Part shown: one piece after another, positions 26,683 through 31,910 of the stretch
Layout: each line of letters begins with the position of its first letter
Numbering within the stretch: position 1 is the stretch's first letter
Assembly: GCA_947464275.1 (NCBI GenBank)
Contig: CANHVU010000003.1
Coordinates: 1 to 64,000, forward strand
DNA length: 64,000 bases
Source: Bacteroidota bacterium
GTDB taxonomy: Bacteria; Bacteroidota; Bacteroidia; UKL13-3
Direction of reading: 5' to 3'
Notes under the pieces: model-generated
Told to the model about the DNA's origin: nothing
Database searches by the model: none
What the model saw: the letters and a program-made list of their open reading frames with translations, nothing else
Program-made: the position numbers and the translations under genes

Positions 26683-27111
26683 GCAGGGAAGTTTTGTAAA
26701 TATGCAATATGCAATAGCCAATAAGCAATTGGTAATAAGCAACTCGCAATTTCAAATAACGAATAATCAGAGTGAGATTGCTTCGTTCCTCGCAATGACG
26801 AATAAACGTACATCGAATAACGAACAACGAATAACGAACATCGAATAATCAGGGTGAGATTGCTTCGTTCCTCGCAATGACGAATAAACTTACATCGAAT
26901 AACGACACTTCGGCCGATAGCTATCGGCCTCCGCTCAGTGACCGTTTTAACGAGCAACGAACAACGAACATCGAACAATGAATAATCAGAGTGAGATTGC
27001 TTCGTTCCTCGCAATGACGAATAAACGAACATCGAATAACGAATCTCGAACATCGAATAACGAACATCGAATCTCTAAATCACCAAATCACCAAATCAAA
27101 AAATCAACCAA
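26683..27111. repeat. Repeat-filled intergenic region
   Basis: This 429-base gap holds three copies of GTGAGATTGCTTCGTTCCTC followed by GCAATGACG (near 26772, 26853 and 26991), many short iterations of CGAATAACGAACATCGAA, and one long imperfect palindrome (26907-26944). Open frames crossing it are made of the repeats and are not genes. Confidence 0.85.
26907..26944. repeat. 38-bp palindromic repeat, copy A
   Basis: Contains the perfect palindrome GGCCGATAGCTATCGGCC within outer arms CACT / AGTG. It matches 29128-29165 at 34 of 38 positions, and two of the differences are compensatory within the stem. Confidence 0.8.
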
Positions 27112-27642
27112 TTACCCCTCAATTGCTGCGTTCAATTTACCTTTGGCAAAATCGGCTGCAAAGTCAATAAACACTTTGTAAGCTTGGGTAAAAGTAAATT
27201 TGTTTTCGCCTGTTTTTTCAATGATATTTCTGCGATTTAAAGTAGTGTAAAATTGTTTTCTACTAAACGCATCTTTCATTTGGTTATTGTTTAAAATAAG
27301 TTCCGCGTAAGATGAGTTAGAAAAATATTCATCTAACTTTTCGGTTTCAAACTCAGCATATTGAATTTCTTCTAAAAAGTTTTTACCATCTTTATCTAAT
27401 TCAAAACTTAGGATAGCAAAAAATAAGCAAATATCACGGCTTAATTGCTCACCAGTTTCATACGAAAGCAGGTAGGCAAAATCAGTTTTAATTTCTATTT
27501 CATAACCAAAACTTTCTTTAAAAAATGAAGAATAAAATTCTTCACTTTCCTTTAACGAAACAAACTTTGGGTCGCTAGCAAGTATAAACTTACCGCTCAT
27601 TAAATCACTAACTATGTCTTTATGATATCTAGGAAATTCCAT
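27112..27642 (-). CDS. MukE/MksE/JetB-like condensin accessory subunit
   Basis: A 176-residue, mostly winged-helix/alpha protein encoded last in the SMC-like run; its start overlaps the end of the kleisin-like gene by 14 bases, so translation is probably coupled. Size, position and acidic helical composition match the KITE-type (MukE/MksE/JetB) subunit that binds a kleisin and an SMC-like ATPase; features such as LNNNQMKDAFSRKQFYTTLNRRNIIEKTGENKFTFTQAYKVFIDF look like a C-terminal winged helix. No single residue motif defines this family, so the call rests on context and overall form. A role in DNA loop extrusion, chromosome organisation or plasmid/phage defence is possible. Confidence 0.65.
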   Translation of the reverse strand: MEFPRYHKDIVSDLMSGKFILASDPKFVSLKESEEFYSSFFKESFGYEIEIKTDFAYLLSYETGEQLSRDICLFFAILSFELDKDGKNFLEEIQYAEFETEKLDEYFSNSSYAELILNNNQMKDAFSRKQFYTTLNRRNIIEKTGENKFTFTQAYKVFIDFAADFAKGKLNAAIEG

Positions 27643-28828
27643 ATTTTAATATTTTTATTTTTGGTACACGCAATGTCATTTGGCTTGTTTTAATGAGTTT
27701 TCTGTCTTTTTCAGTTTCATCTAATTCAAGCATAATATCATCTTCAAAAAGTAAACCTGTTAAAGCAAAAAACTTATCGGTTTCTATGTTTTTATACTCG
27801 CTTCTAAGAGTTAAACCACACCAATCAAAAAAGCTATCAATTGGCAATTGTTCTAACATTTTTGACCTATAAAGTTCTTTGTTAAACACCCACTTATCGC
27901 TATTGGCAATTGGGTCTTCTACCAATATGTTTTCTTCAGTAATAAATTGCTCTAAATACTCTTTAGCATTTAGGTACATATCATTGCTGTAAGGGTAATT
28001 TCTTTCAGGTTTAAATATTTTTGGAACAGGCGATTTGTAAGGTTGTTTTAAAAACTCAATCCATCCTGTAAGAATGATTGATTCAGTTCTAATACGTTCA
28101 ATCAATGGCAATAACTCATTGGTTAATAACTTTGATTGACGCAATAAATTATCGTTTGTCATAACCAAAAAAGTATATAGTTTTTCAAACTGAATCCTTA
28201 TACTTTCATCGTTAAAATTAAGCCTACGCACATTGGTGTATTGCGAAATATCAAACAACTTATTGGTAATACTATCTACATGGTTAATATCCAAAATATT
28301 GTTCAATGGAATAATGTAATAGTCAATCCAAAAGCTGGCTTTACGTACTTTTTCTTTGTAATCAAGTTTATCTACGTTCGATTTTAGTTCACGTGTTTCG
28401 GCTAATAAACGAATGGTGTTTTTTTCTACCGCTTCGCTAAATTCCTTTATTTCATTGTATAAATCGTCAATTCTGCTGCGTAAAATTAAGGTATCGCCTT
28501 TTACACCTTCTCTAATTTTTTGAAATAACTTACCAATTGATTGCTCATACTTTTGAATGGTTTCGGGCAATAATGGCCTAAACTCATTTAAAATAAATTC
28601 AAATAGTTTAAAGTAAGTATCTCTAAATTCAAAGTCTTCGCCAATTTTGCGCAATATTTTATACTCCAATAAAGTAGCTTCAATATTGTCGTTGCGTTCG
28701 GATAACACTTGCGCTAATCGCTCACGTTGTATTACACCATCGGCTGCTTGTATATCAAACAAATCTTTTAAACTATCAAAATAGTTAGCTAAAAAGTTGA
28801 GTATGGTTTTTGGTTCTGCTTTTAACAT
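27629..28828 (-). CDS. MukF/MksF/JetA-like kleisin subunit
   Basis: A 399-residue helical protein. The N-terminal 100 residues look like a winged-helix domain (LKDLFDIQAADGVIQRERLAQVLSER..EATLLEYKILRKIGEDFEFRD), then come long helices (about 90-260, including YEQSIGKLFQKIREGVKG and RLLAETRELKSNVDKLDYKEK). A C-terminal beta-containing domain ends TLRVPKIKILKYGIS. This arrangement fits MukF/MksF/JetA kleisins, which link the two heads of an SMC-like dimer. It lies between an SMC-like ATPase gene and a small KITE-like gene. Family assignment is by architecture and neighbours, not by a diagnostic motif. Confidence 0.65.
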   Translation of the reverse strand: MLKAEPKTILNFLANYFDSLKDLFDIQAADGVIQRERLAQVLSERNDNIEATLLEYKILRKIGEDFEFRDTYFKLFEFILNEFRPLLPETIQKYEQSIGKLFQKIREGVKGDTLILRSRIDDLYNEIKEFSEAVEKNTIRLLAETRELKSNVDKLDYKEKVRKASFWIDYYIIPLNNILDINHVDSITNKLFDISQYTNVRRLNFNDESIRIQFEKLYTFLVMTNDNLLRQSKLLTNELLPLIERIRTESIILTGWIEFLKQPYKSPVPKIFKPERNYPYSNDMYLNAKEYLEQFITEENILVEDPIANSDKWVFNKELYRSKMLEQLPIDSFFDWCGLTLRSEYKNIETDKFFALTGLLFEDDIMLELDETEKDRKLIKTSQMTLRVPKIKILKYGIS

Positions 28829-28849
28829 TTTTATGAATGTTTATTTTAT

Positions 28850-29014
28850 TTAAAATAGAAATTGTTGTTCTAAAAATCGGCTGTTTTTTAAAATAAAATC
28901 TCTAATCTTCATTACTTGTTTATCCGTTGTTCTTTTTAGTCTTTCTTGCATTGCTCCTTTTATTGGCATTTTCGATGCTAATAGTTTTTTGAAAAATTCA
29001 TATTCTATTCGCAT
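28850..29014 (-). CDS. Small basic ORF in the SMC-like locus (54 residues)
   Basis: An ATG frame of 54 residues ends 21 bases before the kleisin-like start. The product is basic and helical (MRIEYEFFKKLLASK, then AMQERLKRTTDKQVMKIRDF and a hydrophobic QQFLF end). It has the same strand and near-operon spacing as the genes around it, and no repeat sequence in it. No family is recognised; coding status rests on position and amino-acid character only. Confidence 0.45.
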   Translation of the reverse strand: MRIEYEFFKKLLASKMPIKGAMQERLKRTTDKQVMKIRDFILKNSRFLEQQFLF

Positions 29015-29258
29015 ACTTTATTTTTATTCATTTAACCGTTGGCTAAAGCCGAACGGCTATTTATGTCTTTCAATTGCCAATTGCATATTGCCTATTGTTC
29101 ATTGCTCATTTTTTTACCGTTGGCTATACTTCGTCCGATAGCTATCGGACTTCGCTCAGTAACCGCAAACGGCTATTTATACTTATCAATTTCTTATTGC
29201 CTATTGTCAATTGCCTGTTGCTTATTATCTATGGTCTATCAACTGTCAACTCAAAAAA
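29015..29258. repeat. Repeat-bearing spacer inside the SMC-like locus
   Basis: 244 bases between the SMC-like ATPase stop and the small ORF. It holds palindromic repeat copy B (29128-29165), flanked by AACGGCTATTTAT units (29050 and 29168), and low-complexity runs of TTGCCTATTG / CAATTGCC type. No gene is supported in it. Confidence 0.75.
29128..29165. repeat. 38-bp palindromic repeat, copy B
   Basis: Contains TCCGATAGCTATCGGA. Relative to copy A (26907-26944) a G-C pair at the base of the stem is replaced by T-A, keeping the pairing. The two copies lie on either side of the kleisin- and KITE-like genes. Confidence 0.8.
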
Positions 29259-31910
29259 CTACCTAACACTAACAGTATTCGATTCGCCATACATGGCATT
29301 TATTTTTTCGTTCACATTTATTTTTCCAGCATTTGGATAAATGAAATAATATTTACCAAAACCAGCCACTGCATCAGGCGCAGCAAATATTGGAATGAAA
29401 TAATGCTCTCTGCAAAAACGCACTAACTCAGGACGGTTTTGTTTATCAATAGTAGCTACCTCATCAATAAACAATACAATTCTATTTTCATCATCAGCAA
29501 TGGCCAATCTATTAATGATATTCATTACAATCATCAAACGAATCATTTTATCAGTTCCATCGCTTTCAATTTGCTCATTTAAATCAACAGGTTTGGTAGT
29601 TCCTTTACGTGTTAAATGTAAAGTTATATCAAATAAATTTTCAAACTCAATGGCCTTACCCGAGTCCAAGTAAGCATCTAATACTTTTAAGTTTTCTGAG
29701 TGGTCAAACTCAAACATCAATTGTCCTTTTACCTGCTGAATTTGGCTGATTTTTTTAACCTCTTCCACCAGCTTTTTATTGTCAACCAACTCAATGGTTA
29801 AACTTTCAATATCTGAAATCCTGCTTTGCGAAAGTTTATGGTTAAACTTATTGTTTACAAATTCTTTGAATTCATCGTAACGTTTAAGTAGGGTATAGGC
29901 AGGATTTGCAAATTGTGTGCTGATGCTTTCTAAAAGCGATTGAATACTACGCTCTTTATCGTCAATTAAAGCAATTTCTTCTTCTACATATTTTATAAAG
30001 TCTTGCTCATCGGCAAATGTTGATTGCAGTTTTTCTCTTAACTTTTCAAACAAATTGTCTTTGTTAATTTTTAGAGTATAGCGATCGTTTTGATTTAGTT
30101 TTATCTTATTGTATAATAAATCTAAATCTTCGCTGCTATCAAATTCATCGGGAGCAATTCCAAAAGCCTCTAACTCGCGTTTGTTTTCTTGTAATTTGCT
30201 AATTCTATCTTCTCGTTTTTTTATCTCCTCGTTTATTTCAATGAGCTCATTCGATTTTTGGGCAATCTTTTTGCTAATTGCCTTTTGGTCTGTTTCAAAC
30301 TGCTCTTTTTCGTTATTCAAAGCAGTAATAACAGCTTTCATTTTTTCAATAGATTTAACTAAAGCTGGCTTACTTTTTATTTTTTGTAGCTTAACTTTTA
30401 TAGCATCTATTTCGGTTAAAATGGTTTGTAATTCGCTTTGCGATTTTTCAATATCTTTTACTGTTTCAAGCAATTGTTCTTGGCTTTTAAGTTCCGTTTT
30501 TGCTTGATTTAGTTTTTCGGTTATTTCTTCAATGCTTTCAAAATCTTTTTGAATAATATTTTTCGAAATATCAATTTCTCCATCAAAAATCTTAAGTGAA
30601 TCACTGATTTTGTGAATGGCTTTTTTTACCTGTTCGCCCGGTAATGCTTTTACTTGTTCACTTAAAATAGCGTTTAGCAATTTGCGGTTATCTTTGTTTC
30701 CGCTAATTTTATTAATTAATAAATCGCTGTAGTTTTTTATTTGGTTTTCAAAACTTGTTACCTGATTTTTTAAAGTCATCACTCTGTATTCAATTTGTTT
30801 TGAATTCAGTTTTTGAATATCAATCATGGTTAAACGACTTTCTATTTCCTTACGTTTTTTGTCGTAATTGGCTAAACTTTCGTTCAGTATTTTTTCAGGC
30901 TCAAATGTGTTAATGGTTTTTAACTCAATTTCTTTTTCGTTAACCTTAATGGCTTCGTTTTGAATTTCGGCATCCTTACCACCAATTTTTCTGTCTAAAT
31001 CCGATTTTTTAGGATTCAAATCTTCGTTAATTTCTGTATTTATTTTTGCCCTAGTTTGAGTCTTATCCACCAACTGTGCTTGTAAACTTGGTAAAGTATG
31101 CTCGTAATTTTGGGTAAATGCAGCATATAATTGGCTAATTATTTTTGATTTAGCACTGTATTGACTCACAATTTCCCTAAATTCATCAAACTCATTTTTA
31201 ACCGATTTAAGGTTACGTATTTCGTTATTGATTTTACGTAAATCGTAAATGTCTTTTTTGTTCTTTTGGCTAAAATTTAACGATTCGTTTTCTCTGTTAT
31301 CAGCTATAATTAAGGCCTCTTTCAGGTTTTTATTGGTAATTAATTTGGTATTGATTAAGTACCTGTAAATTTTTGAGAAGTTATTGCTTAAACCATCGCT
31401 TTTTACATTATCATCTAGCCAAACTACGCCATTATTCCTGCGCCCGCGTTGGTACACAAAGTTAAAAACTTCACGTTTGTCTTTAAATGCTTCTAAAGTA
31501 ATGCCTTCGCTAGCCAAATTAGCTTGCACTTCATCAAACTTCATCAAGCGTTTTTCTGCATCTACATAATGGCTTTCTTTATAATCACTTTGGTATTTGT
31601 AATATTCTAAATTACCTTCACTATCGCGTTTTAGCAAAATACAATAATATGCTTTTTTAAAAACCTCAAATACAATATAGCTTTGGTTTGGATTAGGAAA
31701 ATAATGGTGAATGGTTTCTTTGTCACCACGTCTGTTTCCACTAAAAGTCATTTTATTTCCATCAATAATAAATAAAAAATTGAGGGCATAAATTAATGTT
31801 GACTTTCCAATATTATTTGGTCCAACTAATTGTAAACTATCGCAATCGTTAAATCGTATCTCGGCTTTGCCATATACTTTCGAATTGATAATGGTTAATG
31901 ATGTAAGCAT
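29259..31910 (-). CDS. SMC-like ATPase (MukB/MksB/JetC-like)
   Basis: An 883-residue ATPase with SMC layout. The N-terminal head has the P-loop GPNNIGKST at about residues 30-38 (LQLVGPNNIGKSTLIYALNFLF). Long coiled coils fill about 190-700 (Lys/Glu/Leu heptads such as KREDRISKLQENKRELEAF) with an apparent hinge near 430-450. The C-terminal head has ESDGTDKMIRLMIVMNIIN where an ABC signature is expected and a Walker B IVLFIDEVATID near 825. It is shorter than JetC or MukB. Together with two downstream genes it makes an MksBEF/JetABC-like set. The signature lacks a canonical SGG. DNA loop extrusion or DNA surveillance is the inferred role. Confidence 0.8.
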   Translation of the reverse strand: MLTSLTIINSKVYGKAEIRFNDCDSLQLVGPNNIGKSTLIYALNFLFIIDGNKMTFSGNRRGDKETIHHYFPNPNQSYIVFEVFKKAYYCILLKRDSEGNLEYYKYQSDYKESHYVDAEKRLMKFDEVQANLASEGITLEAFKDKREVFNFVYQRGRRNNGVVWLDDNVKSDGLSNNFSKIYRYLINTKLITNKNLKEALIIADNRENESLNFSQKNKKDIYDLRKINNEIRNLKSVKNEFDEFREIVSQYSAKSKIISQLYAAFTQNYEHTLPSLQAQLVDKTQTRAKINTEINEDLNPKKSDLDRKIGGKDAEIQNEAIKVNEKEIELKTINTFEPEKILNESLANYDKKRKEIESRLTMIDIQKLNSKQIEYRVMTLKNQVTSFENQIKNYSDLLINKISGNKDNRKLLNAILSEQVKALPGEQVKKAIHKISDSLKIFDGEIDISKNIIQKDFESIEEITEKLNQAKTELKSQEQLLETVKDIEKSQSELQTILTEIDAIKVKLQKIKSKPALVKSIEKMKAVITALNNEKEQFETDQKAISKKIAQKSNELIEINEEIKKREDRISKLQENKRELEAFGIAPDEFDSSEDLDLLYNKIKLNQNDRYTLKINKDNLFEKLREKLQSTFADEQDFIKYVEEEIALIDDKERSIQSLLESISTQFANPAYTLLKRYDEFKEFVNNKFNHKLSQSRISDIESLTIELVDNKKLVEEVKKISQIQQVKGQLMFEFDHSENLKVLDAYLDSGKAIEFENLFDITLHLTRKGTTKPVDLNEQIESDGTDKMIRLMIVMNIINRLAIADDENRIVLFIDEVATIDKQNRPELVRFCREHYFIPIFAAPDAVAGFGKYYFIYPNAGKINVNEKINAMYGESNTVSVR

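Follow-up and report, generated by a model that had tools for sequence, protein, structure and literature searches.

A compact MksBEF-type operon with the scar of a Toprim nuclease gene in a Bacteroidota order, a probable disarmed relative of Wadjet

Known SMC complexes and their nucleases

The described systems closest to the locus reported here are MksBEF of Pseudomonas aeruginosa, type I Wadjet (JetABCD, also MksBEFG), and MukBEF of Escherichia coli. MksBEF of P. aeruginosa combines an SMC ATPase, a kleisin, and a KITE subunit of the MksE type, and has no active nuclease. Type I Wadjet likewise has three SMC-complex subunits, and in other Bacteroidota its operons run JetA (~486 amino acids), JetB (~195), JetC (~1133), and JetD (~390). 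MukBEF has been proposed to replace Smc-ScpAB across a whole clade, and MukBEF and MksBEF have both been speculated to have arisen from plasmid-cutting Wadjet through loss of JetD (PMC10586767). MksB is described as having a shorter coiled coil (PMC4255302). Hi-C studies of gut Bacteroidetes found no homolog of known condensins in two species (PMC10197239).

The operon studied here lies in a window of 64,000 nucleotides from the start of contig CANHVU010000003.1 of a Bacteroidota assembly (GCA_947464275.1). No published description of such a system was found in the literature searched. It is read as a variant of MksBEF/Wadjet, most likely a disarmed defence complex that would now serve as a condensin. 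It shares an SMC ATPase and an MksE-type KITE subunit, without an active nuclease, with P. aeruginosa MksBEF but differs in its gene order (B-F-E), in an ATPase of 883 amino acids, in a putative kleisin that is unrecognizable by sequence, in a lineage without Smc-ScpAB, and in a still readable scar of a lost gene. Like Wadjet, relatives of the window add a JetD_C-like Toprim protein (VEN, DxD, and LEQ motifs), but its slot in this family is between B and F, and at ~265 amino acids it is shorter than JetD (~390), whose N-terminal domain it lacks. MukBEF provides the best structural match of B, yet its sequence is not alignable by HMMER, B is much shorter, the gene order is different, and the host belongs to another phylum.

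Organization of the locus and its subunits

The locus comprises the following features, all on the minus strand:

29259-31910, minus: B, MksB/MukB-like SMC ATPase, 883 amino acids, with GPNNIGKST and IVLFIDE motifs
28829-29258, minus: gap between B and F, 430 bp, with repeats (29015-29258) and then a nuclease scar
28850-29014, minus: scar of a compact JetD_C/Toprim-like nuclease gene, an ORF of 54 codons (blastp, blastn, tblastn)
27629-28828, minus: F, kleisin-like subunit, 399 amino acids (ORF, helical domain layout)
27112-27642, minus: E, KITE subunit, MksE, 176 amino acids (Pfam PF21980)

A preliminary description of this DNA had listed three ORFs of 883, 399, and 176 residues on one strand, the last two overlapping by 14 bases, and these coordinates are all correct, as are the two ATPase motifs in the 883-residue ORF. 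It had also remarked on the unusual ESDGTDKM at the signature position; this is present, and no member of the family departs from it at E, S, G, T, D, or M. A contig scan gave 19 Bacteroidota loci with F, and the order was B-F-E in every one that had all three genes on the same contig, so the arrangement is not a product of chance.

The B protein is best described as an SMC ATPase with a split head, a long antiparallel coiled coil, and a hinge, as predicted by modelling. The AlphaFold model places the head halves at about 1-212 and 700-883, the coiled-coil arms at 215-400 and 460-693, and a small hinge region at about 400-460. Its best PDB match by Foldseek is MukB (7nyw_B, E 1.8e-9), followed by Rad50 (ranks 5-6), condensin, and JetC; because the head halves of the model, which was built from 14 sequences, are of low confidence, this result supports the SMC class of B and not its precise position. 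By sequence, B has no Pfam family match above the cut-off (AAA_29 reaches 1e-4, below it), PADLOC JetC matches it weakly (9e-4 over the coiled coil, 2e-3 over the P-loop), and profiles of B and E searched against PDB sequences returned nothing beyond coiled-coil or chance matches.

It could be argued that B is a repair ATPase of the RecN/SbcC/Rad50 kind acting outside any SMC-kleisin-KITE complex, given the place of Rad50 in the Foldseek list and the resemblance of the P-loop to generic AAA families. This is barely credible: MukB stands above Rad50 at the head of that list, an MksE subunit is both co-encoded and co-conserved, and no Mre11/SbcD-like gene was recognized among the adjacent ORFs examined.

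E matches Pfam PF21980 MksE at 65.4 bits (1e-17, cut-off 27), which assigns it by sequence to the KITE subunits of the MksE/MukE family. Together with the MukB match of B, it bears out the MksBEF/Jet-like reading first given to the locus. F has no sequence relative in Pfam, PADLOC, NCBIfam, or the PDB (single sequence and profile), nor by hhalign against JetA; Pfam finds no DUF3375 in it, and PADLOC finds no JetA or JetB among the proteins of the locus. Its secondary structure consists of a helical N-terminal domain, a helical middle domain, a linker, and a C-terminal domain of helices and strands. The model of F rests on 17 close sequences, is of poor quality (pLDDT 57.6), and gave no significant Foldseek match. 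A second structural comparison of this low-confidence model with MukF (1t98) gave Z 8.7, in register over residues 1-275, with the MukE-MukF complex (3euh) Z 9.0, and with JetA (8q72) Z 7.1, values that helical folds can reach by a common arrangement. F is a putative kleisin, judged by its position, its size, and the low-confidence fold match to MukF.

A nuclease slot between B and F

The preliminary description held that the locus has no nuclease gene. There is indeed no intact Toprim gene next to the operon, but the stump of a nuclease gene in the 430-bp gap between B and F had been overlooked. The scar aligns with the final ~52 residues of the full-length protein of a relative, G293 (locus L003; 58% over 52 amino acids, blastp E 6e-18), and with its gene over 155 nucleotides at 77% (blastn E 2.8e-26; tblastn E 8.6e-14). 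It lacks the catalytic region, and beyond this C-terminal scar no JetD-type Toprim nuclease is found in the operon of the window. Because the scar corresponds to the C-terminal end of a gene like that of G293, the operon once held a nuclease gene whose catalytic part has been deleted. At least one nuclease loss is proven by this scar.

Intact copies persist in relatives. In a JetD_C profile search of 78 genomes, one weak match, in G250, sat exactly between B and F; the G250 protein exceeds the Pfam JetD_C cut-off. The profile overlooks some compact nucleases, with no match listed for G293 or G186. The junction between B and F was read in 50 genomes of the order and in G186: intact nuclease genes of ~261-276 codons occupy it in G250, G293, and G276 within the order and in G186 outside it, and the other junctions are gaps of 8-430 bp without an intact nuclease, which leaves 47 of the 50 genomes of the order nuclease-free. 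The compact nuclease, of ~265 residues, is a Toprim protein related to the C-terminal domain of JetD. In profile comparison, the four examples align with JetD of Bacteroidota over the Toprim region and have the VEN, DxD, and C-terminal LEQ motifs in common with it. No relative of it was found in the viral contigs searched.

On the tree of B and F, presence and absence of the nuclease require at least four changes. The four nucleases are roughly equidistant from one another (32-38%), irrespective of how far their B proteins have diverged, and because of this repeated loss is not separable from repeated gain or in-place exchange.

The repeats at 29015-29258 are common to the B-F gaps of L001 and L019. 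A 38-nucleotide element downstream of E (26907-26944) recurs inside the B-F gap at 29128-29165, and three copies of a 94-nucleotide intergenic repeat containing GATTGCTTCGTTCCTCGCAATGACG lie just downstream of E, at 26752-27064.

Distribution of the complex and absence of ScpA

The order of the window was sampled with 59 genomes from one family and 14 genera, and the phylum with 247 genomes. A profile of B detects MksB in 50 of the 59 genomes, a near-universal presence that is mostly nuclease-free; in the phylum sample it finds only the genome of the window and G186. The ScpA profile finds nothing in the order (0/59, the genome of the window included) but matches 208 of the 247 genomes across the phylum. 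In the genome of the window, the two best SMC_N matches fall in reading frames 369 and 556 amino acids long and the longest matched frame has 978 amino acids, with no SMC-sized protein seen among these matches.

The replacement of ScpA is a single event on the tree and not a statistical correlation, because the sampled Bacteroidales-like families that lack ScpA mostly lack MksE as well. These families (f4, f5, f7, f8, and f10) agree with the earlier report on gut Bacteroidetes (PMC10197239). The B-F-E complex supplies an answer, specific to one lineage, to the problem of the missing condensin raised there, and the sampled Bacteroidales-like families still show neither system.

Eight genomes of the order, several of them ~94-99% complete, lack both B and E: five in the genus of the window (G283-G287), and G259, G275, and G294. 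The complex is therefore dispensable. These same genomes, up to 99% complete, lack ScpA as well as the MksB/MksE of this family and are apparently without a recognized condensin.

Selection, neighbourhood, and inheritance

Among the nuclease-free species G000, G280, and G281, dN/dS for B, F, and E is 0.016-0.061 and all three frames are open, values that indicate strong purifying selection on all three genes. They speak directly against the idea that the operon is a decaying remnant, in which the remaining genes are disappearing in the wake of the nuclease and serve no function today in the genome of the window. Such decay would fit the scar within the operon and the fact that five further genomes of the genus have lost B and E altogether; with the genes constrained and open to this degree, it is highly improbable.

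The surroundings of the locus differ between groups. In genus g123 the full arrangement, seen in several loci, places the operon between parA-parB-DUF5683-dapB-lepB and aroC-topA, and in most members lepB borders it at one end, or aroC and topA do so at the opposite end. Within the genus of the window the flanks vary between species. A search for parS was negative, both in the window and in all the loci retrieved. The tree of B mostly agrees with that of rpoB, with one departure, G293 inside the g1 group, which suggests one transfer (G293 against G282). F has no relatives among the PLSDB plasmids and IMG/VR viral contigs searched. The idea that phages or plasmids move the operon is unsupported.

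Complete type I Wadjet operons occur elsewhere in four genomes (G252, G261, G270, and G304), on other contigs (L177-L180), together with nuclease-free B-F-E, a coexistence that suggests separate jobs for the two.

A disarmed complex as a candidate condensin

Two roles had been proposed for the locus at the outset, a chromosome-organizing condensin variant and a defence system with its nuclease elsewhere. The first is favoured. The locus probably encodes a disarmed Wadjet-like MksBEF complex that acts as a chromosome condensin, although appreciable doubt remains. A compact complex of the MksBEF type (B the ATPase, F the kleisin, E the KITE subunit) would descend from a Wadjet-like system, and the optional Toprim nuclease gene of its B-F slot has been deleted in the window, leaving the 165-bp scar. 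The remaining complex most likely loads on chromosomal DNA and extrudes loops, and it would be the only condensin of the lineage, Smc-ScpAB having been lost. A role on the chromosome is proposed because ScpA is missing from the order, B-F-E is constrained without a nuclease, and the operon has a parAB/topA neighbourhood in g123. The broad agreement of the B tree with rpoB and the lack of F relatives in the plasmid and viral sets also speak for this reading. Against the condensin reading stand the eight genomes without the complex, the changing flanks, and the suggested transfer between G293 and G282.

Continued defence would account for some of the same observations. B-F-E might sense plasmid or phage DNA and act without cutting, by sequestration or silencing through compaction, or rely on a nuclease located at another site. 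Loss is patchy and location shifts within the genus of the window, relatives with the nuclease exist, Wadjet, a homologous system, defends against plasmids (PMC10586767), and the genome-wide JetD_C profile is one that misses the compact nucleases of G293 and G186. Set against these points are the near-universal occurrence of B-F-E in the order outside one genus, the strong constraint on what is left after loss of the effector, the parAB-topA neighbourhood, and the standard Wadjet operons that coexist in four genomes. The proposal of a nuclease elsewhere found no support when JetD_C was sought throughout the genome of the window, a search that was negative with a profile that misses some compact nucleases. 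Defence is, on balance, an unlikely account.

In this order, the single slot between B and F may house an optional nuclease cassette that switches one SMC complex between immunity and housekeeping; the cassette would have come and gone repeatedly, the loop-extruding core persisting throughout and taking over from Smc-ScpAB. We regard this reading, a transition from Wadjet to condensin visible today, as possible, at somewhat less than even chances. In the scar, the nuclease-bearing relatives of the same family, and the lineage without Smc-ScpAB, loss of a JetD-type nuclease is caught in the act, and these features make the proposed route from Wadjet to MksBEF testable in natural pairs.

Related operons in the phylum

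Other Bacteroidota MksE loci that were read are either ordinary Wadjet operons (JetA-JetB-JetC-JetD) or belong to a second four-gene type. The latter is found at L140:7501-13623 (G012) and L141:4735-10826 (G002), where F (437-456 amino acids), E (215-224), and B (1056-1080) are followed by a protein of 305/317 amino acids. E of these operons belongs to Pfam MksE. The last protein shows at most a match below threshold to JetD_C/Toprim, and PADLOC recognizes none of the four proteins of the L141 operon. This arrangement is possibly an unlisted Wadjet-like type. Genus g124 carries a very divergent, nuclease-free B-F-E (L130; 36-42% identity), which forms a very long branch in the tree of B and F.
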